Shown: piece by piece, positions 25,323-49,428 of the stretch
How the letters are laid out: every line of letters begins with the position of its first letter
Numbering within the stretch: position 1 is the first letter of the stretch
DNA from: Magnetococcales bacterium DCbin4
Lineage (GTDB): Bacteria > Pseudomonadota > Magnetococcia > Magnetococcales > UBA8363
Reading direction: 5' to 3'
DNA: 61,351 bases
Assembly (NCBI GenBank): GCA_002753735.1
Contig: PEAN01000018.1
Coordinates: 1 to 61,351, forward strand
The notes under the pieces: generated by a model
Databases searched by the model: none
Told to the model about the DNA's origin: nothing
What the model saw: the letters and a program-made list of their open reading frames with translations, nothing else
Made by a program: the position numbers and the translations under genes

Positions 25323-25399
25323 TTGGGCGGCGACAACACCTTCGGCGATGTCCGGCGTGGAACATTTTAAGATGAAGTGAACCCCCCGTGGAGGAACCC

Positions 25400-27091
25400 A
25401 TGTACGGCGACCTCGAATTCCACCAGGTACTCCGACGTGCCGAAGCATGCTTTCATCGCGCCAACCAGTTGGTGGAATTGGGGCGGTTGGAGGCGGCGGT
25501 GGCTGATTATCGCCAGGCGGTGACCCTGGTACCCCAATGGGCCGAAGCCCATTTCAATCTGGGCAATACCCTGATCGCCCTGGGGCAATTGCCGGAAGCG
25601 GAAGCCTGTTATCGCCAGGCGACGGAGGCCAAACCTGATTTTACCGTCGCCTGGTTCAATCGTGGCCATGCCCTGGGGACACTGGGCCGGTTGGAAGAAT
25701 CCTTGAACTGTTTCCTTCGGGGACTCGACGTGCAGCCCGAAGATGCGGGAGGATTCAACGGGTTGGGGAATACCCTCCTGGATTTGAACCGTCTCGATGC
25801 GGCGGAGGCGGCTTATCGTCATGCCGTCGCCCTGGATCCCACTCTGGCGGAAGCGGCATACAATCTCGGCCGGGTTTTGGCGTTGCGGGGGGCGTTTCCA
25901 GAGGCTCGGACGTGTTATCAGACCGCCGTCTCCCTGAAGCCCGGTTTCGCTCAGGCACACTACAATCATGGCAATACCCTGGTCCACCTGGGGTTGCTGG
26001 AAGAGGCGGTGCATGCCTATCGCCAAGCCGTGGCGCTATGGCCCGGCTATGCCGAGGCATGGTATAATCTGGGCAATACGCTGCGGGAATCGGGAGCTTT
26101 GGACGCTGCGTTGGCGACGTATGACCAGGCGCTGGCACTCAAGCCCGACTTTGCCGAAGTCCATTTCGGCATCGGGGTGATCCGTCTGTTGCGCGGGGAC
26201 TTCGCGTCAGGATGGCCCCTGTACGAATGGCGCTGGAAAAAACAGGATTTCCCCCCGCACCACCATCCCCAGCCATTGTGGCAGGGACAACCGTTGCCGG
26301 GCGCAACCCTCCTGGTTCATTGCGAACAGGGGTTTGGGGATGCCATTCAGTTCGTCCGCTATCTGCCACAAGTCAAGGCGCTTGCCCGGTCGCACATCAT
26401 CCTTGAGTGTCCGCAACCGTTGCGCCGCCTGTTCTCCACGCTGGCTGGAGTCGATGGGTGGGCAACCCCCGGTGGGGCAGCGCCGCCCGCCTGCGTTGCG
26501 CAGATCCCCCTGATGAGTCTGCCCCATCTTCTGGGGCGGCATTGGACCTTTCTGCCGGTGGAGTTGCCCTACCTGACCCCGGCCCCGGAGGATGTGGCCC
26601 GGTTTGGCAAACTTTTGGCACGGGTTGAAGGATTCAAGATCGGGATCGCCTGGCGTGGTTCACCTGACCATAAGAATGATGGCAACCGTTCCATGGACCC
26701 TGAATGGTGGCAGACCCTGCGTGAAATACCGGGGTGTCGTTTCATCGGCATTCAAAAGGGTGCCCGCGAAGGGGATCGGGATCGGCTTACAGGGTGGGAC
26801 CGGTTTGAGGATTGGAGTGGATTGCTGACCGACTTCGCCGATACCGCTGCCCTCATGGTCCATCTGGATCTGGTGCTTGCGGTCGATACCAGCGTGATCC
26901 ATCTGGCGGGTGCCCTGGGTCGTCCTTCCTGGTTGTTGCTCCCGTGGATTCCCGATTGGCGCTGGCTGCTGAATCGGTCGGACAGTCCGTGGTATCCCGG
27001 CATGCGTCTGTTTCGTCAAAAGACCCGGGGCGATTGGGGGGGGGTGATGGAGGAAGTGAAAAAAGGTCTTGAGTCCATGTTGAAAAAATGA
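25400..27091 (+). CDS. TPR protein with GT9-like glycosyltransferase domain (paralogue 1)
   Basis: 563 residues. About 1-265 are seven or eight TPRs (e.g. AHFNLGNTLIALGQLPEAEA). The remainder is a two-lobed glycosyltransferase-like domain with HCEQGFGDAIQFVRYLP, GIAWRGSPDHKNDGNRSMD, DLVLAVDTSVIHLAGALG and PDWRWLLNRSDSPWYPGMRL, resembling the heptosyltransferase (GT9) fold. The TPR part probably selects the protein acceptor; donor sugar unknown. ATG 25400 follows GGAGGA. Two paralogues lie at 29924 and 36093. Convergent with the chemoreceptor gene, ending at a dispersed repeat. Confidence 0.85.
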   Translation: MYGDLEFHQVLRRAEACFHRANQLVELGRLEAAVADYRQAVTLVPQWAEAHFNLGNTLIALGQLPEAEACYRQATEAKPDFTVAWFNRGHALGTLGRLEESLNCFLRGLDVQPEDAGGFNGLGNTLLDLNRLDAAEAAYRHAVALDPTLAEAAYNLGRVLALRGAFPEARTCYQTAVSLKPGFAQAHYNHGNTLVHLGLLEEAVHAYRQAVALWPGYAEAWYNLGNTLRESGALDAALATYDQALALKPDFAEVHFGIGVIRLLRGDFASGWPLYEWRWKKQDFPPHHHPQPLWQGQPLPGATLLVHCEQGFGDAIQFVRYLPQVKALARSHIILECPQPLRRLFSTLAGVDGWATPGGAAPPACVAQIPLMSLPHLLGRHWTFLPVELPYLTPAPEDVARFGKLLARVEGFKIGIAWRGSPDHKNDGNRSMDPEWWQTLREIPGCRFIGIQKGAREGDRDRLTGWDRFEDWSGLLTDFADTAALMVHLDLVLAVDTSVIHLAGALGRPSWLLLPWIPDWRWLLNRSDSPWYPGMRLFRQKTRGDWGGVMEEVKKGLESMLKK

Positions 27092-29923: not shown

Positions 29924-32728
29924 ATGAACTCTGATCTTGAATCATTTTTGGAGCAGGCGCTGCAACACCATGCCGCGGGAAGGTTGGCGGAGGCCGGGGC
30001 GCTTTATCGGGCGATCCTGGAGGTGGATGAAACCCATCCCGACGCCCTGCATCTGTTGGGGGTGGTGGCCCATCAATCGGGGGCGGATGAATTGGCGGTG
30101 GCGTTGATCTCCCAGGCGCTGGCCGTCCGGCCCGGGGATGCCGCAGCCCATAACAATCTGGGCAATGTCCTGAAAAAACTGGGCCGTTTGCCGGAGGCCC
30201 GTGCCAGCTTCCAGCAGGCCCTGACGTTGCGTCCACATTATCCCGAAGCCTGCAATAATCTGGGCAACACCCTGAACGAACTGGGAGACCTGGAGGCGGC
30301 CATCGAACATTACCGCCAGGCGCTGCGTTTGCATCCCGGTTATGCCGAAGCCTGCTTCAATCTGGGAAACGCACTGCGGGAGGCGGGCCGTCTGGCGGAT
30401 GCGGTGCCACATTATGAACGGGCCATCGCCCTCAGACCCGACCGGGTTTTGTGGTTGATTGACCTGGGTCATCTCCTGTACCGGCTGGGTGCTCTGGAAC
30501 AGGCCGCTGGGCGCTTCAAAGACGCCTTGAACCTTGATTCCAATGGGGTGGAAGGGTGGATCGGCCTGGGACGGGTGTTGGCGGCAATGGGGCGGTCGGC
30601 GGAGGCCATCGCCTGTTTTGAAGCGGCGTTGCAACGCAACCCGCAGCACCCTGAAGGGTGTTATCATCTGGGGTTGGCGTTGCATCAAAGCGGGCAGGTG
30701 GACGCCGCCATGACATGGTACCGGCGCGCCCTGGAATCCCGGCCCGATTTTGCCGAAGCGCTCAACAATCTGGGAATCGTGTTGCAGGAACGGGGGCGAT
30801 TGGACGAGGCGTTGTCCGTCCTGCGCCGGGCCGTGGCGGTGCAACCCGATGAACCCCGGGTGCGCTACAATCTGGGTTTGGCATTGCAGACCGCAGGGGC
30901 GCTGTCCGAGGCGGAAGCATGTTACCAGCAGGTGTTGCGCCAACGTCCCGGAGATCCCGAGACCTGGACCAATCTGGGGTTGCTCCGTCAGCGGGAAGGT
31001 CTCTGGGACCAGGCGGAGGCGATGTATCGGACGGCGCTGGGGCACCGTCCCGATCATCCCGAAGCCTGTTCCAATCTGGGGGTGGTGTTCGAGCGTCAAG
31101 GGCGTTTGGTGGAGGCGCTGGAACAATTCCGCCGCGCACTGGTACTGCGTCCCGATTTTCCCGAGGCGCGGGTCAATCTGGGAAATGTTTTATACAAACT
31201 CAAACGTCCCGAAGAGGCCATCGCGACGTTCCAGGAGGCGCTCCGGCTTCGGCCCGATGACAGCGATGCCTGGTCCAACCTGGGGATCGTGCTGCAAAAA
31301 CAAAACCGTTTCGCCGAGGCGCTGGACCATCATCGCCGGGCGCTCGCACTCAAGCCCGGTTCCGCCAAGGGGTTGACCCATCTGGGCAACACCCTCCAGG
31401 CGATGGGCGACCGGGAACAGGCGATGGCCGCGTTTCGGCAGGCACTCGCATCCGATCCGGAATGTGTCGCGGCGATCTCCAATCTGGGCAATGTGTTGCT
31501 CGAACAGGGCGACCTCGATGCCGCCATCACCCATTATCGGCAGGCGCTCGCACTGAAGCCCGAGGATCCCGATGCCCGTTCCAACCTGGGGGTTGCCCTG
31601 CAAAAACAGGGGCATCTGGAAGATGCCATCGTCTGCTACCGACAGGTCCTGGCCCTCGATCCCGATCATGCGGAAACCTTGTCCAATGAGGGCAACGCGT
31701 TGCATTGCAAGGGACGGTTCGATGAGGCACTGGCCCGGTTCGATCGGGCCAGGCACCTCGACCCTGAACTGCCCGATCCCTGGTTCAACGAGGCGATCAC
31801 CCGTTTGTTGCTGGGGGAGTTTGACCGGGGTTGGTCGCTGTATGAATGGCGTTGGCGCAGTCGGGATTTTCAATTCCATGGACGTCCCGAACCGTTGTGG
31901 GACGGTACCTCCTTGACAGGGCGGCGTATTTTGTTGCATTGCGAACAAGGGTTCGGTGACAGCATTCAGTTTGCGCGGTATGCCGGAAGGGTCAAAGCCA
32001 CCGGGGGGACGGTGGTCCTGTTGTGTCCCGAACCATTGCGGCGTCTGTTTGCAACCCTTCCCGGAGTCGATCATCTGGTGACCCGGGATCCTCCCTCATG
32101 CGACTGTCAGGCCCCGTTGCTCAGTCTGCCCCGAATTTTTGCGACCCGGTTGGAGAACATTCCCACCGATATCCCCTATCTCGGGGCCGATCCCCAACGG
32201 GTTGCATCGTTTGGCAAATCATTGTCCCGGGTGCGGGGGTTGAAGGTGGGAATTGCATGGCGGGGCAATCCCAGGTACAAGAATGACCGTGACCGTTCCA
32301 TGGACCCGGCGCTGTTGACGGTGTTGCGGGATCTTCCAGGGTGTTCCCTGGTCAGTCTGCATCCCGATATGACCGACCGGGAACGGGATTGTTTCGGTGA
32401 TGGTTTGTTTGACCCGGGACCGATGTTGGGTGATTTCGCCGATACGGCGGCGCTGATTGCCAATCTGGATCTGGTCCTCGCTGTCGATACGGCGGTGATT
32501 CATCTGGCGGGGGCGATGGGACGTCCGGCATGGGTTATGCTTCCTTTCGTTCCCGATTGGCGCTGGTTGTTGGAACGAAACGACAGTCCGTGGTATCCCT
32601 CGTTGCGCCTGTTCCGGCAACCCGCTTCGGGGGGGTGGCAGGCGTGTATCGCGGCGGTGGTGCAGGGGTTACAGGGGTGGCCTGATTCTGTGCGTGTCGC
32701 ACACCGTCGGGGCGGGAGGGAGGAATGA
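29924..32728 (+). CDS. Large TPR protein with GT9-like glycosyltransferase domain (paralogue 2)
   Basis: 934 residues: about 18 consecutive TPRs (1-630), each with the pattern NLGNVL..LGR..EA...YR.AL.L.P, then a ~300-residue GT9-like domain (HCEQGFGDSIQFARYAG, GIAWRGNPRYKNDRDRSMD, DLVLAVDTAVIHLAGAMG, PDWRWLLERNDSPWYPSLRL). The superhelix is more than twice as long as in the two paralogues, which suggests a larger protein acceptor or binding of several partners. The resemblance to O-GlcNAc transferase is architectural only. No signal peptide, so probably cytosolic. It is followed by a minimal nucleotidyltransferase gene. Confidence 0.87.
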   Translation: MNSDLESFLEQALQHHAAGRLAEAGALYRAILEVDETHPDALHLLGVVAHQSGADELAVALISQALAVRPGDAAAHNNLGNVLKKLGRLPEARASFQQALTLRPHYPEACNNLGNTLNELGDLEAAIEHYRQALRLHPGYAEACFNLGNALREAGRLADAVPHYERAIALRPDRVLWLIDLGHLLYRLGALEQAAGRFKDALNLDSNGVEGWIGLGRVLAAMGRSAEAIACFEAALQRNPQHPEGCYHLGLALHQSGQVDAAMTWYRRALESRPDFAEALNNLGIVLQERGRLDEALSVLRRAVAVQPDEPRVRYNLGLALQTAGALSEAEACYQQVLRQRPGDPETWTNLGLLRQREGLWDQAEAMYRTALGHRPDHPEACSNLGVVFERQGRLVEALEQFRRALVLRPDFPEARVNLGNVLYKLKRPEEAIATFQEALRLRPDDSDAWSNLGIVLQKQNRFAEALDHHRRALALKPGSAKGLTHLGNTLQAMGDREQAMAAFRQALASDPECVAAISNLGNVLLEQGDLDAAITHYRQALALKPEDPDARSNLGVALQKQGHLEDAIVCYRQVLALDPDHAETLSNEGNALHCKGRFDEALARFDRARHLDPELPDPWFNEAITRLLLGEFDRGWSLYEWRWRSRDFQFHGRPEPLWDGTSLTGRRILLHCEQGFGDSIQFARYAGRVKATGGTVVLLCPEPLRRLFATLPGVDHLVTRDPPSCDCQAPLLSLPRIFATRLENIPTDIPYLGADPQRVASFGKSLSRVRGLKVGIAWRGNPRYKNDRDRSMDPALLTVLRDLPGCSLVSLHPDMTDRERDCFGDGLFDPGPMLGDFADTAALIANLDLVLAVDTAVIHLAGAMGRPAWVMLPFVPDWRWLLERNDSPWYPSLRLFRQPASGGWQACIAAVVQGLQGWPDSVRVAHRRGGREE

Positions 32729-35855: not shown

Positions 35856-36082
35856 ATTGAAAAAAAAAAGGGGTCTGGGGGATTGCCCCCAGGGTTTTGA
35901 TTTTTGTTTTTGTTTTTTCCATCCCCCACAGGGGGTCTGGGGGACGAAGTCCTCCAGGGTTTCTGATTTTTGTAGTCAATGAAAACCATAATAGATAATT
36001 CTTTGGATCACTTCGCCCCCCTCTGTGGAGGATGTGAGATCAAAATCAAAACCCTGGGGGCAATCCCTTAAGACCCCTTTTT
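35856..36082. repeat. Inverted pair of GC-rich repeats
   Basis: The left arm (TATTGAAAAAAAAAAGGGG, TCTGGGGGATTGCCCCCAGG, GTTTTGATTTT) is matched in reverse complement by 36029-36082 (AAAATCAAAACCCTGGGGGC, AATCCC, GACCCCTTTTTTTT). A related CCCACAGGGGGTCTGGGGG motif lies between them. The right arm abuts the start of the next TPR gene, leaving almost no leader. Confidence 0.8.
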
Positions 36083-36092
36083 TTTCTTGATC

Positions 36093-37856
36093 ATGAGAAT
36101 CAACCCCCCCATGTCACCACTCGAACGGGCCCTGCACCACCACGCCGCCGGGCGTCTGGCGGAAGCCCAAGCCCTCTACCAGGAAATTCTCGCCATCCAT
36201 CCCGAACACCCCGATGCCCTGCACCTCCTGGGTGTCGTCGCCCACCAGGTGGGACGGGACGAACTGGCCCTCCCCCTGATCCAACACGCCTTGACCCTGC
36301 GTCCCGATCATCCCGAATCCCACAACAATCTGGGCAATGTCCAACGTCGTCTTGGACACTTCACCGATGCGGTCGCCAGTTTCACCCGGGCACTCGCCCT
36401 CAAACCCCACTATCCCGAAGCCCACAACAATCTGGGCAATGTCTTCAGAGAGATGAATCGCCTGGAAGAGGCCGTCACCTGTTATCACCGGGCACTGACG
36501 CTCAATCCCAATTATGCCGATGCCCATGTCAATCTGGGGATGGCCCTGTGGCGGCAGGGATTATTGGCAGAGGCGGTCGCCAGCCTGCAACAAGGGATCC
36601 GCCTGGCGCCCAATGTCGCGGGCGGTCACCTGAATCTGGGCAATGTCCTTGTCGCAGCGGGCCGTCTGAACGAGGCGGTGGCGAGTTACCGCCAGGCGTT
36701 GACCTTGCAGCCCGAAAGCGCCGAAGTCCACATGAATCTGGGAAACGCCCTGGTGACCCTGGAGTCGTTTGACGAAGGACTTCACCATTTGCATCATGGA
36801 TTGTCTTTGAATCCCGCGTCGGCCCGGGGACATTACAATCTGGGCAACGGTTACCAGAAAATGGGATTGCCCGAACAGGCGATCCCCCACTATCGCCAGG
36901 CGATCCGTCTGCAACCCGATTTTCCCGACGCCCGGTTCAATGAAGGATTGTCGCATCTGCTCCTGGGGGCGTTGACGGAGGGGTGGGCGGGCTATGAATG
37001 GCGTTGGCAAAGCAGCGGTTTCATTCCCCACGGGCATACCGCTCCCCCATGGCGTGGTGAATCCTTGGCAGGACGAACCCTGCTGTTACACTGCGAGCAG
37101 GGATTCGGCGACAGCATTCAGTTCATCCGGTTTGTCCCCCGGCTCAAGATGCGAGGCGGGCGGGTGGTGCTGTGGTGTCCTCCCGCGCTCAAACGGTTGT
37201 TTTCCTCAATCGAGGGGATCGATACCCTCGTCAGCACGGTGGATGACCTTCCCCCCGCGTGCGATTGCCAGCTTCCATTGATGAGCCTGCCCCATGTGCT
37301 GGGGGTCACCCTGGAGACGCTGCCGGCATCGATCCCTTATCTGAGCGCCGAGCCGGAGTTGCTGGCGGAGAAACGTCTTCCTTCCCTGCCTGGACTCAAG
37401 GTAGGCGTCGTCTGGCGTGGAGATCCCCGGCATGGCAATGATCGCCATCGCTCCCTGGAGGCCAGGGCATTGGCGGTTCTGACGACCGTCCCGGGGTGCT
37501 GCCTGATCGGCCTGCAAAAGGATGTATCCGTGACGGAAGGGGCGGTTTTTGCTGCGATGGGGGAACGTTGGTTGGATCTGAGCGAAGGGTTGCATGATTT
37601 TGCCCATACGGCGGCGGTGATCGCCCAACTCGACCTCGTGATCGGAGTCGATACCGCCGTGGTTCATCTGGCCGGGGCGTTGGGGTGTCCCGCCTGGCTC
37701 CTGTTGCCCCGGGTTCCAGATTGGCGTTGGTTTCTGGATCGTGACGACAGCCCCTGGTATCCTGGCATGCGCTTGTTTCGGCAACGGGTTCGGGGCAACT
37801 GGGATGCGGTGCTGTTGGATGTGGTCCAAGCCCTGCGTGTCGTTGCCGGTTCATGA
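36093..37856 (+). CDS. TPR protein with GT9-like glycosyltransferase domain (paralogue 3)
   Basis: 587 residues: about eight TPRs (1-285, e.g. HNNLGNVQRRLGHFTDAVAS), then the GT9-like domain (HCEQGFGDSIQFIRFVP, GVVWRGDPRHGNDRHRSLE, DLVIGVDTAVVHLAGALG, PDWRWFLDRDDSPWYPGMRL). The opening LERALHHHAAGRLAEAQALY is almost the same as in paralogue 2. Start choice between ATG 36093 and ATG 36111 is uncertain because the arm of a repeat with a T run lies directly upstream and no ribosome-binding site is visible. Its end overlaps the next gene by four bases, starting an apparent three-gene operon. Confidence 0.85.
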   Translation: MRINPPMSPLERALHHHAAGRLAEAQALYQEILAIHPEHPDALHLLGVVAHQVGRDELALPLIQHALTLRPDHPESHNNLGNVQRRLGHFTDAVASFTRALALKPHYPEAHNNLGNVFREMNRLEEAVTCYHRALTLNPNYADAHVNLGMALWRQGLLAEAVASLQQGIRLAPNVAGGHLNLGNVLVAAGRLNEAVASYRQALTLQPESAEVHMNLGNALVTLESFDEGLHHLHHGLSLNPASARGHYNLGNGYQKMGLPEQAIPHYRQAIRLQPDFPDARFNEGLSHLLLGALTEGWAGYEWRWQSSGFIPHGHTAPPWRGESLAGRTLLLHCEQGFGDSIQFIRFVPRLKMRGGRVVLWCPPALKRLFSSIEGIDTLVSTVDDLPPACDCQLPLMSLPHVLGVTLETLPASIPYLSAEPELLAEKRLPSLPGLKVGVVWRGDPRHGNDRHRSLEARALAVLTTVPGCCLIGLQKDVSVTEGAVFAAMGERWLDLSEGLHDFAHTAAVIAQLDLVIGVDTAVVHLAGALGCPAWLLLPRVPDWRWFLDRDDSPWYPGMRLFRQRVRGNWDAVLLDVVQALRVVAGS

Positions 37857-44463: not shown

Positions 44464-44772
44464 TCAGGAGCGGCACATCTCGTCAAGAATCGAATGCGAC
44501 TTCATGTTTGGAAAACACGAAACATGACGCCGCGCGAGAAATTTATCCAGGGCATGAGCCATGCGGCGTTCACGCGCCAACAAGCGTATGACATCTTGAT
44601 CCAATCCATCTTCCCTGGCCTCGGAGAGAATCCCTTCAATATGATTGCGGGCTGCTTCCCTGGCCGCTTGCCGTGCCCGCTCGATCCGGTCCACATAGCG
44701 ATTGAGCTTGTTGACCACGGGAGGGGTGGTGGACGGGGTGGTGTCATGATTGAGAATCGTGTTCATGGCCAT
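44464..44772 (-). CDS. GapR-like (DUF2312-type) small protein
   Basis: 102 residues from ATG 44772, with AAGGAG nine bases upstream. The central part (LNRYVDRIERARQAAREAAR then IEGILSEAREDGLDQDVIRLLARER) resembles the helical core of GapR/DUF2312 proteins, which clamp overtwisted AT-rich DNA in Alphaproteobacteria. The usual acidic tail is replaced by a segment with two cysteines (HVSCFPN, DEMCRS). Similarity is by pattern, so membership is tentative. It is divergent from the MamB-type gene. Confidence 0.5.
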   Translation of the reverse strand: MAMNTILNHDTTPSTTPPVVNKLNRYVDRIERARQAAREAARNHIEGILSEAREDGLDQDVIRLLARERRMAHALDKFLARRHVSCFPNMKSHSILDEMCRS

Positions 44773-45163
44773 GGATCTAATGCTCCTTAAGCGTGATGAG
44801 CCAATGGGTTGTCTGTCGGGTGAAGGTCTGACCATTTGACGGCCTGACTCGCGATAGCCAAATTTAATGCAACTTATGTGCCGCACTGGTGGAATTTCGA
44901 TTAACAATCTGATATAAAAGGATAAACAATCATGACTCCCCCATGATCCATGATTCCATCCGACATGGTTTCCTCTATTGGGATGTGGTTCTTTTGACGA
45001 TCACATGTCCAAGTCATGACTGGGGGCCATCCGGGGTTACGTTGAAAACAGGTGCGGCAGGTCCTGGGATGGGTCATAATCCGTCCCGTGGGGACAAAAG
45101 GCCGGTTCTCGCCCGTGCAGGCGAAGGATCAAACGGTCTTTATTCGAGGATTCGAGGGTGCGG
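44773..45163. promoter_or_regulatory. Divergent promoter region before mamB-like gene
   Basis: About 390 bases between the GapR-like (-) and MamB-type (+) genes. It contains an AT-rich GATATAAAAGGATAAAC stretch at 44911-44926 and a dyad ATCATG-N7-CATGAT at 44929-44947, with a further CATGAT at 44949. These are candidate operator elements for one or both genes. No reading frame inside is convincing. Confidence 0.4.
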
Positions 45164-46066
45164 ATGCGTCGAAAGCCGGAGTGTGTCGATTGTGTGTTCA
45201 AGGCGGCGAAACTGGACCTGGCGGTGGTTGCGGGCCAGGCCTTGTTTACCGGTGCGATCGGGTTTCTGACCGGGAGCGTGGCGTTGCATGCCTTTGCGTT
45301 GCAGTTTGTCGGTGATCTCCTGGCCAAAAGTGTCAGCTTCATCGGTATCCGTGCCTCCATTCGGCCACCGACGGAAGATTTTCCTTATGGTTATGGCAAG
45401 ATACAATTTTTGACAGCCCTTTTCGTCGGTTTGGCGCTTCTTTTGGGGGCCGTCTCCTTCATGGCGTTCAACGTCATTCACCTCCATGAAGGGATGGTGT
45501 CGGCACCGTCGGGATTGGCCATTCCGGGAACCTTGTTGACCGCTGCGGTGTGTGAGTTGATGTATCGCTACATGTCCTGTGTCGGCAGGGAAAACAACAA
45601 CCTGGTCATCACTGCCGCCGCCTGGGACAACCGCAATGATGCCTTGTCGGCGCTGGCCATCCTGGTCGGGGTGGTGGCGTCAAAACTTGGCGCGACCTGG
45701 GCCGATCATCTGGCGGCGCTGGCGGTGTCGCTGTTGGTGATCCGGGCCGGTCTGGTCATCGTGACCGATGCCGTCAAAGGTTTGCTCGATGTCACGGCGC
45801 CGGAACATGTGCTGCACGAGGTTGAAGAGGTGGTGGGCATGGTGCCGGAAATACGGGACCGTATCGATTTTCGCAGTCGCCGCCTGGGAGATACATGGGA
45901 GCTGGATCTGCGCCTGGGGGTCGATGAAGGTCTTTCGGTGACCCGTCTGCACCAGCTTGAAATCGAGTTGATCCATCAAATTTACCAACACGTCCCCCAT
46001 ACGGGCCATGTTCATGTCAGTTTCGTCCCCTGCCCCCGGGATCAAACAGGGCCTGACGATGCCTGA
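45164..46066 (+). CDS. mamB-like: MamB-type cation diffusion facilitator
   Basis: 300 residues. The closest family I recognise is magnetosome MamB: N-terminal CVDC pair, GFLTGSVAL, PYGYGKIQF, then ELMYRYMSCVGRENNN and AWDNRNDALSA, almost residue for residue as in MamB; a soluble C-terminal dimerisation domain follows (WELDLRLGVDEGLS). MamB inserts in the magnetosome membrane and moves iron with MamM. In the metal site, TM5 DxxxD (155/159) and TM2 D51 remain, but the first TM2 ligand (His/Tyr/Asp in relatives) is Q47, and the nearby conserved ADS Asp is F44. It may be a divergent paralogue with a structural role. ATG 45164 preferred over GTG 45158. Confidence 0.8.
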   Translation: MRRKPECVDCVFKAAKLDLAVVAGQALFTGAIGFLTGSVALHAFALQFVGDLLAKSVSFIGIRASIRPPTEDFPYGYGKIQFLTALFVGLALLLGAVSFMAFNVIHLHEGMVSAPSGLAIPGTLLTAAVCELMYRYMSCVGRENNNLVITAAAWDNRNDALSALAILVGVVASKLGATWADHLAALAVSLLVIRAGLVIVTDAVKGLLDVTAPEHVLHEVEEVVGMVPEIRDRIDFRSRRLGDTWELDLRLGVDEGLSVTRLHQLEIELIHQIYQHVPHTGHVHVSFVPCPRDQTGPDDA

Positions 46067-46528: not shown

Positions 46529-46837
46529 TCAGTCTTGGACGGGCGAGGTGTTCAAAGAATGTGCGGGGTGGTTGGGGGACGGATGTCCTTTGGTGATGAT
46601 GATGTTTTTGGCTTGGTTGTTGGGAACGCAGATGCGGTATCCCAGTATGGAATAGATCCCGGGGCCGCCCCAGGGGGCATGAGTTTCCATGGTGATGGTT
46701 TTTCCCGATACGAACCCCATGGACATCAAACGTTTGCGCGCGGTGTCGTCTCCTTCGATGCGCCGGATGATGCCGGTTTCTCCGGCTTTGAGATCGGCAA
46801 GGGTGAGGTGTTGTTGATCAGGAAGCGGATGTTTCAT
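46529..46837 (-). CDS. feoA-like: FeoA-domain protein
   Basis: 102 residues. The SH3-like FeoA pattern is plain: LTLADLKAGETGIIRRIEG, RKRLMSMGFVSGKTITM, and the terminal IYSILGYRICVPNNQAKNI. FeoA is a small cytosolic partner of the ferrous iron transporter FeoB; FeoA-like genes also occur in several magnetosome clusters. No feoB is in the window. A ~17-residue C-terminal extension beyond the domain is unusual. A Fur-like box lies 14 bases upstream of the start. Placement between MamB-type and mamI genes supports a link to iron supply for biomineralisation. Confidence 0.85.
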   Translation of the reverse strand: MKHPLPDQQHLTLADLKAGETGIIRRIEGDDTARKRLMSMGFVSGKTITMETHAPWGGPGIYSILGYRICVPNNQAKNIIITKGHPSPNHPAHSLNTSPVQD

Positions 46838-47191: not shown

Positions 47192-47755
47192 TCAGTGGTA
47201 CCTTGCAATCGTCAACCGGGTTTGTGGCCCGGGTGCCTGTGGCGCTTCCCGGGGGTTATCCTTGAGCCACCGTTTGAGTTCCTGATGATCGGGGCGGATT
47301 CTGATCGCTTTGCGCCAGGCGGCGATGGCTTGGCTTGAGTGATCCCTTCGGGCATGGGCCAGGCCAAGGTAATAATGCAGGTGGAACCGGTGGGGATGTG
47401 CCAGGGCGGCCGGGGCCAGAATGGCAATGGCCTCCTGCGGTTGATCCGAGGTGAGCAATGCCTTGCCCAAAAGAATCGAAATATCGGCATCATGAGGAGA
47501 TTGTTGCAATGATTCCATGAGCAGCGATATGGCCTCTGCCAAGCGACCGACATTCAGATAGGCCAGGGAAAGATTCATTTGTGACACATAATCACCCGCT
47601 CCCTGCCGGACCGCCCGCTCCAGGCAAGGGATGGCGTGTTCAAGCTTCCCCTGGTTGACCAGCCGGATCCCCAGGGTTCTTTGTTCGGTGTCGGGTGTGG
47701 CATCATCGTTGGCCTGAAAGGGGGGGGCGTGATCACCTCCTCGATCATGTTCCAT
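47192..47755 (-). CDS. TPR protein in magnetosome islet
   Basis: 187 residues from ATG 47755. After a charged, disordered start come four TPR-like units (RTLGIRLVNQGKLEHAIPCL, MNLSLAYLNVGRLAEAISLL, ILLGKALLTSDQPQEAIAIL, YLGLAHARRDHSSQAIAAW), ending with a Pro-rich tail. It is not a close copy of MamA but has the same type of fold. It is divergent from mamI and could scaffold protein assembly on the same membrane. AAGGAA lies upstream of the start. A longer frame to 47959 exists but has no family-like sequence. Confidence 0.7.
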   Translation of the reverse strand: MEHDRGGDHAPPFQANDDATPDTEQRTLGIRLVNQGKLEHAIPCLERAVRQGAGDYVSQMNLSLAYLNVGRLAEAISLLMESLQQSPHDADISILLGKALLTSDQPQEAIAILAPAALAHPHRFHLHYYLGLAHARRDHSSQAIAAWRKAIRIRPDHQELKRWLKDNPREAPQAPGPQTRLTIARYH

Positions 47756-48132
47756 GCTGAGGGCTTTCCTTAAGGTTTGGGTGAAGATACGGCAAATTGT
47801 TTGCTTTAATGCAAGATAAAGGCCGATTCGTATTGTTTGAATGCCCCGTTCACCCCGTTCTTCCGACCCGGGCTTGCAATTTTTGTCACCATGGCCTATA
47901 TTTGCCTGACCCAGTGGTCTGAATTCGTGATGATGGCCACGTCTTGGGGGATGAACCACTCTTTGCCCTGGATCGGCCCCTTGACTCCGGGTGTGTTACC
48001 TTCGAACCCCCGCTTGGGATTCCCACAAGCCCGCTTGTTCAAGTACACCGAGGGGGTTCCCGGCACGGGGTTTTTGGTTGACGTGATACGACTCGAACCT
48101 GAAACACAAACGGCAGGGAGTGAACCGGCGGT
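47756..48132. promoter_or_regulatory. Divergent promoter region between TPR gene and mamI
   Basis: About 380 bases between the divergent TPR (-) and mamI (+) starts, so it should contain both promoters. A moderately AT-rich part lies near 47790-47830. I see no strong dyad, gene or RNA. Confidence 0.45.
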
Positions 48133-48399
48133 ATGGCCAACATCATTTTCGGGCTGATTGCCCTTGCCCTTGGCCTTTGGGGCCTTTCCGTCTGGTGGTG
48201 GTCGGTGGTGGAGCTGCTGCGTGGTATCGTTCCATTGTTCCTGATCATGCTTGGGTTCGTCGCCCTGGGGGCGGGGGTCATTCGCGTGCGTGACGAGGAG
48301 CGTGGGGTGGAAACGGTCGATCTGACCGAAGAATCGGGTGGGCAACCCGGTTCCAGGGACGAGCCGATACCCGATGCCCCCGGGTCCGCCCAATCGTGA
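48133..48399 (+). CDS. mamI: Magnetosome membrane protein MamI
   Basis: 88 residues, two membrane helices. The sequence IIFGLIALALGLWGLSVWWW then SVVELLRGIVPLFLIMLGFV and ALGAGVIRVRD fits MamI, a ~70-77-residue protein required for magnetosome vesicle formation in Magnetospirillum; the GL.GL..WWWSV.E.LRG.VP core is diagnostic as I recall the family. An acidic C-terminal tail of ~30 residues makes this copy slightly longer. GGGAG lies 13 bases upstream. It is 70 bases ahead of mamA on the same strand, so both are probably one transcription unit. Confidence 0.85.
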   Translation: MANIIFGLIALALGLWGLSVWWWSVVELLRGIVPLFLIMLGFVALGAGVIRVRDEERGVETVDLTEESGGQPGSRDEPIPDAPGSAQS

Positions 48400-48469
48400 A
48401 ACCATGTGGGGTTCGCGGGTGGGGGCATGGTGAAAACCCTGTGCAATTGCCTGATGAGGAACATGCCTG

Positions 48470-49132
48470 ATGAAGTCCGGAAACCGCAGCCCGAATCCAC
48501 GCTCCGAGATCGGTTTTTTTGCCCATGCCGCCCTGTATGTGATCAAACGGGCCTTCATTTCCGCTACGCAACGGTTCAACGAATTTTTTTCGGTGGATGA
48601 TGCGTTGCGGGGGCAATATTTCCGGCAACGGGGGGTCGAACATACCCGCCGCGGGCGCTATGAGGTTGCTGTTGCACCGTTGGAACAGGCGCTTGATGCA
48701 TGGCCGCGGGATGAGGAAACCCTGTTTCATCTCGGCTTTTGTTATCTGAAATTGGACCGCCCTCAAAAAGGCATTGAGGTATTGGAGCGTGCCCTGACCT
48801 TGGGGCGCGGTGGTGTCCGGGTCCGTTCCATCCTGGGAATGGCCTTTTTGCAGACCCGGGAATATGACAAGGCGGTGCAGGTGTTGGAACCGGCCCTGGC
48901 AGAGGATCCGCAAAATTTTCACCTCAATTATCGGATGGCCTTGGCGCTCGACCACCTGAAGATGTTCGACCGTGCGCTGGTCTGTTTCAAAAATGCAGCG
49001 GCGGTTCGTCCTGATGATCCGAAAGTCTATCGGTTCATGGGTTTGACCTTGGAGCGGATGGGGCGCCACGAAGCGTCGGTGATGCAGTTCAGAAAGGCGG
49101 CCAGCCTTGAGGAAGGATCCCCGAGCAGTTGA
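48470..49132 (+). CDS. mamA: Magnetosome TPR scaffold protein MamA
   Basis: 220 residues, matching MamA in length and layout: an N-terminal helix pair (EIGFFAHAALYVIKRAF, FNEFFSVDDALRGQYFRQRG) followed by five TPRs (HTRRGRYEVAVAPLEQAL through GLTLERMGRHEASVMQFRKA). The FSVDD.R..Y.R..G start and the GRHE....FKKA end are nearly those of Magnetospirillum MamA. MamA coats the magnetosome surface and self-assembles through its TPRs. Start ATG 48470 has GAGGA upstream. A long palindromic repeat follows its stop and could terminate transcription. Partner genes mamE, M, O, P, Q and K are not in this window. Confidence 0.88.
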   Translation: MKSGNRSPNPRSEIGFFAHAALYVIKRAFISATQRFNEFFSVDDALRGQYFRQRGVEHTRRGRYEVAVAPLEQALDAWPRDEETLFHLGFCYLKLDRPQKGIEVLERALTLGRGGVRVRSILGMAFLQTREYDKAVQVLEPALAEDPQNFHLNYRMALALDHLKMFDRALVCFKNAAAVRPDDPKVYRFMGLTLERMGRHEASVMQFRKAASLEEGSPSS

Positions 49133-49214: not shown

Positions 49215-49428
49215 ATTAATTATTGAAAGAAAAAAGGGGTCTGGGGGATTGCCCCCAGGGTTTTGACTTGAAACAAAAAGCTTCATTCTCCGTTTTTGAA
49301 CTTGCTCTTGAATTTGCTTTTGAATTTAAACAAGATCAAAAGCGAAGAATGAGGCTTTTTGTTTCAAGTCAAAATCAAAACCCTGGGGGCAATCCCGCAG
49401 ACCCCTTTTTTCTTTCAATAATTTTCCA
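49215..49428. repeat. ~210-bp palindromic element (inverted repeat pair)
   Basis: Left arm about 49215-49300 begins ATTATTGAAAGAAAAAAGGG, GTCTGGGGGATTGCCCCCAG, GGTTTTGACTTGAAACAAAA. Right arm about 49335-49428 is its reverse complement with few changes and one small insertion. Arms are ~85 bases. It lies between the convergent mamA and two-CW genes and could act as a bidirectional terminator. Structure recalls a MITE, but the single unit also occurs alone elsewhere in the window. Confidence 0.85.

Follow-up and report, generated by a model that had tools for sequence, protein, structure and literature searches.

Iron loading of magnetosomes is usually explained with two cation diffusion facilitator (CDF) proteins, MamB and MamM. 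We analyzed a 61,351-nucleotide stretch of DNA from Magnetococcales bacterium DCbin4 (contig PEAN01000018.1, here called the window) that carries a CDF gene with unusual residues in its second transmembrane helix (TM2), and this locus raises the question of whether the gene encodes an altered MamB, as the initial annotation had it, or a separate component of the magnetosome, and what such a component might do.

Family assignment of the gene

The gene under study is as follows:

45164 to 46066, plus strand: MamV-like cation diffusion facilitator gene, with an open reading frame of 300 amino acids plus stop (assigned by PF01545, NCBIfam profiles, and tree clade)

The frame runs from an ATG at 45164 to a stop at 46064 to 46066; an alternative GTG start is present at 45158, and the starts of relatives align with the ATG. 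The interval first annotated, 45278 to 45646, falls within this gene and comprises only residues 39 to 161, from TM2 to TM5. The protein scored 126.9 bits against Cation_efflux (PF01545; curated cut-off, 26.6) and 25.3 bits against ZT_dimer, slightly below the cut-off of 26.7. Its AlphaFold2 model (pLDDT, 90.3) matched the YiiP structure 5vrf (Z score, 24.0; RMSD, 4.7 over 280 residues) and has the YiiP-like six-helix fold with a C-terminal domain. Among the NCBIfam profiles, MamV (NF040994) gave 290.5 bits, the MamB equivalog (NF033616) gave 279.1 bits, and MamM gave 151 bits; these three were the best matches above the general CDF level, and none reached its cut-off (500, 350, and 350 bits, respectively). 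As the NF040994 score is below 500, we refer to the protein as MamV-like and not as MamV.

A tree of 84 proteins (LG+C20), which has long branches, one of them flagged, resolved a MamM clade (support, 100/99), a MamB clade (88/80), and a MamV-like clade of 44 proteins (100/100). The window protein lies outside the MamB clade and falls, together with Magnetospirillum MamV, in the MamV-like clade, where the proteins of its genus form a group (100/100) that joins 14 Magnetococcales and Thiotrichales proteins (99/92). It also has both of the traits of the MamV clade, a lysine at position 55 and the loss of metal site B. The source genome (4.52 Mb in 148 contigs) contains five CDF genes. Canonical copies of both mamB (C32:30254-31111) and mamM (C32:22617-23471) are found on contig C32, so that the second mamB proposed as a check in the initial annotation does exist; their TM2 motifs are VADAFHSAAD and VADGLYSAKD, respectively. 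The window protein is approximately 35% identical to this MamB and 29% identical to this MamM.

With that level of identity, with T70, F73, and Y77 at the site-B positions, and with several other metal positions changed, the description of the protein as matching MamB almost residue for residue beyond TM2 does not hold, and its framing as a MamB type with an altered TM2 gives way to that of a MamV-clade protein. The accompanying suggestion, that it might be a paralogue with a different metal choice or a structural partner, is borne out as far as paralogy is concerned by the canonical mamB and mamM genes and by the separate clade. On phylogenetic grounds, the gene is a member of the MamV branch, a third ancient magnetosome CDF paralogue beside MamB and MamM.

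Two other observations concern mamB itself. In Magnetospirillum sp. SS-4 (L146, L158, L187), mamB appears to be split or to carry a frameshift, and a further partial copy lies elsewhere in the genome; the bin HA3dbin1 (L120, PEAK01000004.1) has a second, divergent MamB that is 52% identical to the query MamB and is encoded outside the main cluster.

Metal-binding positions

Residues were tallied across the 44 MamV-clade, 26 MamB, 11 MamM, and 3 outgroup proteins, and transmembrane positions were related to YiiP by profile alignment. The features concerned are the following:

45278 to 45358, plus strand: TM2 helix, residues 39 to 65, with the altered site (helix in the AlphaFold2 model, mean pLDDT 90; mapped on YiiP TM2)
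45293 to 45295, plus strand: F44, replacing the conserved TM2 Asp of MamB and MamM (residue tallies)
45302 to 45304, plus strand: Q47, the first site-A ligand position (residue tallies)
45314 to 45316, plus strand: D51, the site-A Asp that is kept (residue tallies)
45326 to 45328, plus strand: K55, the clade-signature Lys one helical turn past D51 (residue tallies)
45371 to 45394, plus strand: T70, F73, and Y77, at the YiiP site-B ligand positions Asp/His/His (YiiP alignment and tallies)
45626 to 45640, plus strand: D155 and D159, the TM5 ligand pair that is kept (residue tallies)
45899 to 46015, plus strand: E246, D248, and H284, at the central metal-site positions of the C-terminal domain (aligned to MamM W247/D249/H285)

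Numbered from the ATG at 45164, F44, Q47, D51, D155, and D159 are as first reported. Q47, D51, D155, and D159 align with D45, D49, H153, and D157 of YiiP site A; TM2 aligned free of gaps, so no shift restores the missing ligand. Position 44 is Asp in all MamB, MamM, and outgroup proteins (26/26, 11/11, and 3/3) and in 0/44 members of the MamV clade. Position 47 is His in every MamB (26/26) and Tyr in every MamM (11/11). Within the MamV clade it is His in all 10 proteins of the Magnetospirillum-type group and Tyr in 8 of the 9 proteins of a second group, and in the coccus branch it is Gln in all 6 proteins of the window genus and Leu, Gln, or Lys in the sister group, with Leu in 9 of 14; this degeneracy argues against a fourth ligand. 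The MamB site-A set of D44, H47, D51, D155, and D159 is therefore incomplete in the window protein, and F44 and Q47 are not standard residues of Magnetococcales MamB proteins, which keep D44 and H47. Sequencing noise was rejected as their source, since all five congeneric orthologues share both residues with differing synonymous codons (TTT/TTC and CAG/CAA). The remaining ligands are nearly invariant in the MamV clade (D51, 44/44; D155, 43/44; D159, 44/44).

The most distinctive change, which the initial annotation missed, is the Lys that replaces Ser/Thr at position 55. It is present in 43 of the 44 MamV-clade proteins, the other having Arg, and was found in none of the MamB, MamM, or outgroup proteins of the tally. 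Nor did it occur in a further 29 CDFs from across the phylum, a few of which are MamB or MamM and two of which repeat tree proteins, giving about 65 distinct CDFs from outside the MamV clade overall. At site B, the histidines are lost clade-wide, and position 70 is Asp in three congeners.

The C-terminal positions correspond to the published central site of the MamM C-terminal domain, W247/D249/H285 (PMC7170241), and E246, D248, and H284 are kept in all six proteins of the window genus. A phmmer search of PDB sequences with the C-terminal part alone returned no match at E 0.01; the family profile matched the C-terminal domain structures of MamB and MamM.

Gene surroundings and distribution

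The neighbors of the mamV-like gene include the following:

44467 to 44907, minus strand: GapR-like gene, whose proximity to mamV is conserved among congeners (PF10073, 20.9 bits, just below the cut-off of 22.6)
46529 to 46837, minus strand: feoA, convergent to the mamV-like gene (PF04023, 69.7 bits)
47192 to 47959, minus strand: TPR gene, start codon uncertain (55% identity over 151 amino acids to the main-cluster TPR gene L006:5229-6011)
48133 to 48399, plus strand: mamI, one of three genomic copies (NCBIfam MamI, 88.7 bits; cut-off, 80)
48470 to 49132, plus strand: mamA-like TPR gene, present three times in the genome (196.5 bits against NCBIfam MamA; cut-off, 200)

The mamV-like gene and these neighbors are thus on a contig other than C32, whose magnetosome cluster contains mamH, mamI, mamE/O, mamK, mamM, mamP, mamA, mamB, mamS, and mamT, names given mostly by resemblance and gene order without a profile test. 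The window locus keeps the relative gene order of that main cluster, with the remainder missing. The C32 cluster has no mamV, and a tblastn search detected no remnant of one between its mms gene and the gene that follows. We infer that the window locus duplicates part of the magnetosome cluster in reduced form.

Orthologues of the GapR-like gene (67 to 76% identity) are present in four congeners, where the genes run from the GapR-like gene through an mms-like gene to mamV; in the two of these whose contigs are longer, mamH, mamI, and other mam genes come next downstream. On single contigs of G001 and G005, mamV lies 15 to 17 kb from mamM and 24 to 25 kb from mamB. In three other magnetic cocci, "Candidatus Magnetaquicoccus" UR-1 among them, mamV adjoins feoB, and in two of these three a gene for a DtxR-FeoA fusion is there as well. 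The mamV-like genes are therefore linked to both magnetosome and ferrous-iron (feo) genes.

Several features of these regions were recorded in passing. The three mamI-mamA sets of the genome are at window positions 48133 to 49132, on contig C28 (G000 C28:6307-7300), and on C32; the pairs of the window (C119) and C28 are 81 to 82% identical (83% in DNA), and the main-cluster copies are approximately 63 to 66% identical to the window pair. The C28 pair belongs to a small islet (L256, 897 to 7303) with a second mamK (65%), feoB, mamI, and mamA. Elsewhere in the window, three related long TPR proteins (25388 to 27091, 29924 to 32728, and 36087 to 37853) are encoded beside glycosyltransferase-like genes, the first two being 44 to 45% identical to the third. 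The genome contains about 178 copies of a palindromic repeat (AGGGGTCTGGGGGATTGCCCCCAGGGTTTTGA), 81 of them forward and 97 reverse, against 0 in a reversed control; copies lie at window positions 35869 to 35900 and 49235 to 49266 and on many contigs, and the repeat also matches a congener (L222). Finally, the next gene after Tyr-type mamV in L159, L160, L205, L218, L262, L266, and L267 encodes a protein of approximately 120 amino acids; both of the proteins tested (L159 and L218) have a chemoreceptor zinc-binding (CZB) domain according to Pfam, and a hemerythrin identity was accordingly rejected.

In a search of 61 genomes, orthologues of the window protein (71 to 85% identity) were found in five of seven congeners; one of the two congeners with no match is merely 78% complete. 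As read from the hit table of the homologue search, at least 27 of 48 Magnetococcales genomes, including the source genome, have a member of the MamV group, and since most are draft bins, absences are uncertain. Six magnetotactic genomes, all named genomes found by a MamB scan, have a MamV above the NCBIfam cut-off, and further members of the clade come from Thiotrichales and SAR324 bins. No MamV was found in G018, which has MamB, MamM, and one further CDF. According to the published view, Magnetospirillum acquired mamV recently and magnetotactic cocci lack it; the gene was reported absent from strains MC-1 and IT-1 (PMC3934378). Our data correct this view, which rested on those two genomes, within an open-access literature that leaves room for a prior description of a coccus MamV. 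Magnetic cocci appear to carry MamV more often than was thought, and MamV is common in Magnetococcales and Magnetospirillum-like bacteria.

Possible function and comparison with known systems

The replacement of metal residues, including the gain of a clade-conserved Lys, suggests that the protein is a helper or regulator and not an ordinary iron pump. The combination of a lost D44, a weak position 47, a gained K55, a lost site B, and a retained set of three Asp residues and C-terminal site is best fitted by a protomer that has ceased to cycle metal and instead pairs with MamB/MamM or regulates them. Our leading proposal, to which we give slightly less than even confidence, is that the protein may be a noncanonical, possibly nontransporting subunit that works with MamB and MamM. 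Judging from helix spacing, K55 would sit on the cytoplasmic side of site A, a turn below D51, and could act there as a built-in cation paired with the Asp cluster. F44 would block the lumenal side of the path. It can be envisaged that the protein, lacking MamB-style metal cycling, acts as an auxiliary protomer or regulator that dimerizes, most probably with MamB or MamM, through its C-terminal domain, and that this domain senses iron. MamB-MamM heterodimers are known in Magnetospirillum, and the mamV gene of AMB-1 has been described as being of unknown function (PMC10470508). There are precedents for parts of this scheme: mammalian ZnT6, putatively an auxiliary partner of ZnT5, lacks two ligands, and in ZIP2 a metal position is occupied by lysine (PMC7949119). 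Against an auxiliary subunit, three of the four site-A ligands are nearly invariant, which would be needless in a purely structural protein. The more complete proposition, that MamV is an ancient CDF family turned nontransporting, in which Lys has replaced the site metal, serving as a ZnT6-like auxiliary or regulatory protomer of MamB and MamM and commoner in cocci than thought, is possible but on balance rather unlikely.

The nearly invariant Asp residues also leave room for real transport with another selectivity, and the His found together with K55 in Magnetospirillum MamV indicates that K55 alone may not abolish transport. It is a credible alternative, although we think it probably incorrect, that a site of three Asp and one Gln moves Fe2+ or Mn2+ in a homodimer or in a heterodimer with MamB. 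The Mn transporter ZnT10 has an Asn that is comparable to this Gln. The fixation of Q47 in the genus despite synonymous change, the feo linkage, and the full CDF fold would all agree with transport, but most sister-group proteins have Leu at position 47, D44 is lost clade-wide, and a Lys beside the site with all site-B ligands gone would be unusual for a metal exporter.

A third reading, which we consider improbable, is an iron-sensing or feo-linked regulator that would bind metal at its C-terminal site and tie either FeoAB uptake or the activity of MamB/MamM to cytoplasmic iron, with no stable heterodimer. The conserved E246, D248, and H284, the adjacent feoA in the window, and the feoB and DtxR-FeoA neighbors in other cocci point in this direction; however, feo adjacency is not universal, and four congeners have mms and GapR-like neighbors instead.

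Far less probable is a decaying remnant, in which both the second-locus position and the lost ligands stem from pseudogenization. The gene does lie outside the main cluster, in a reduced locus, but its frame is intact, the five congeners show the same residues, and in at least four of them the gene keeps the same neighbors. Within the genus, pairwise dN/dS values in the same genomes were 0.08 to 0.14 for the mamV-like gene versus 0.06 to 0.11 for mamB (Nei-Gojobori; synonymous sites partly saturated). Purifying selection thus acts on the mamV-like gene about as strongly as on mamB, and a pseudogene was rejected on these grounds. The weakest candidate, a recent mamB duplicate with a changed TM2, has general likeness to MamB and the NCBIfam MamB score in its favor and was ruled out by the tree, the subthreshold value of that score, and the low identity to the canonical MamB encoded on C32.

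A noncanonical subunit beside MamB and MamM remains our preferred reading. A third paralogue that is selected about as strongly as MamB and has a Lys next to the transport site is a component that the two-CDF model does not explain, and it makes auxiliary CDF subunits in magnetosomes a directly testable question.

Among known systems, the closest is Magnetospirillum MamV, which shares the clade, K55, the three Asp residues, the loss of site B, and the CDF fold. It differs in having His at positions 44 and 47, in its location near mamT and mamB, and in belonging to a profile, NF040994, whose cut-off the window protein does not reach; the His at 47, a trait of that profile, is Gln here, but Tyr-type proteins (L159 and L160) also pass the cut-off, so that His 47 is not strictly defining. 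MamB has in common with the window protein the fold, D51, D155, D159, an N-terminal CxxC, and the magnetosome gene set and differs in D44, H47, Ser/Thr at 55, often a site-B His, and a separate clade. MamM shares the fold, D51, and D159, whereas D44, Y47, H155, its site-B His, its low identity, and its clade set it apart. YiiP (FieF) is alike in overall fold and site-A position, but its site A is D45/D49/H153/D157, it has Ser at the K55 position, and its site B is complete. ZnT6, a functional analogue and not a family member, is likewise a paralogue without some transport-site ligands beside a canonical partner; unlike the window protein, it is eukaryotic, its heterodimer has been shown experimentally, and its two missing ligands are replaced by hydrophobic residues (PMC7949119).
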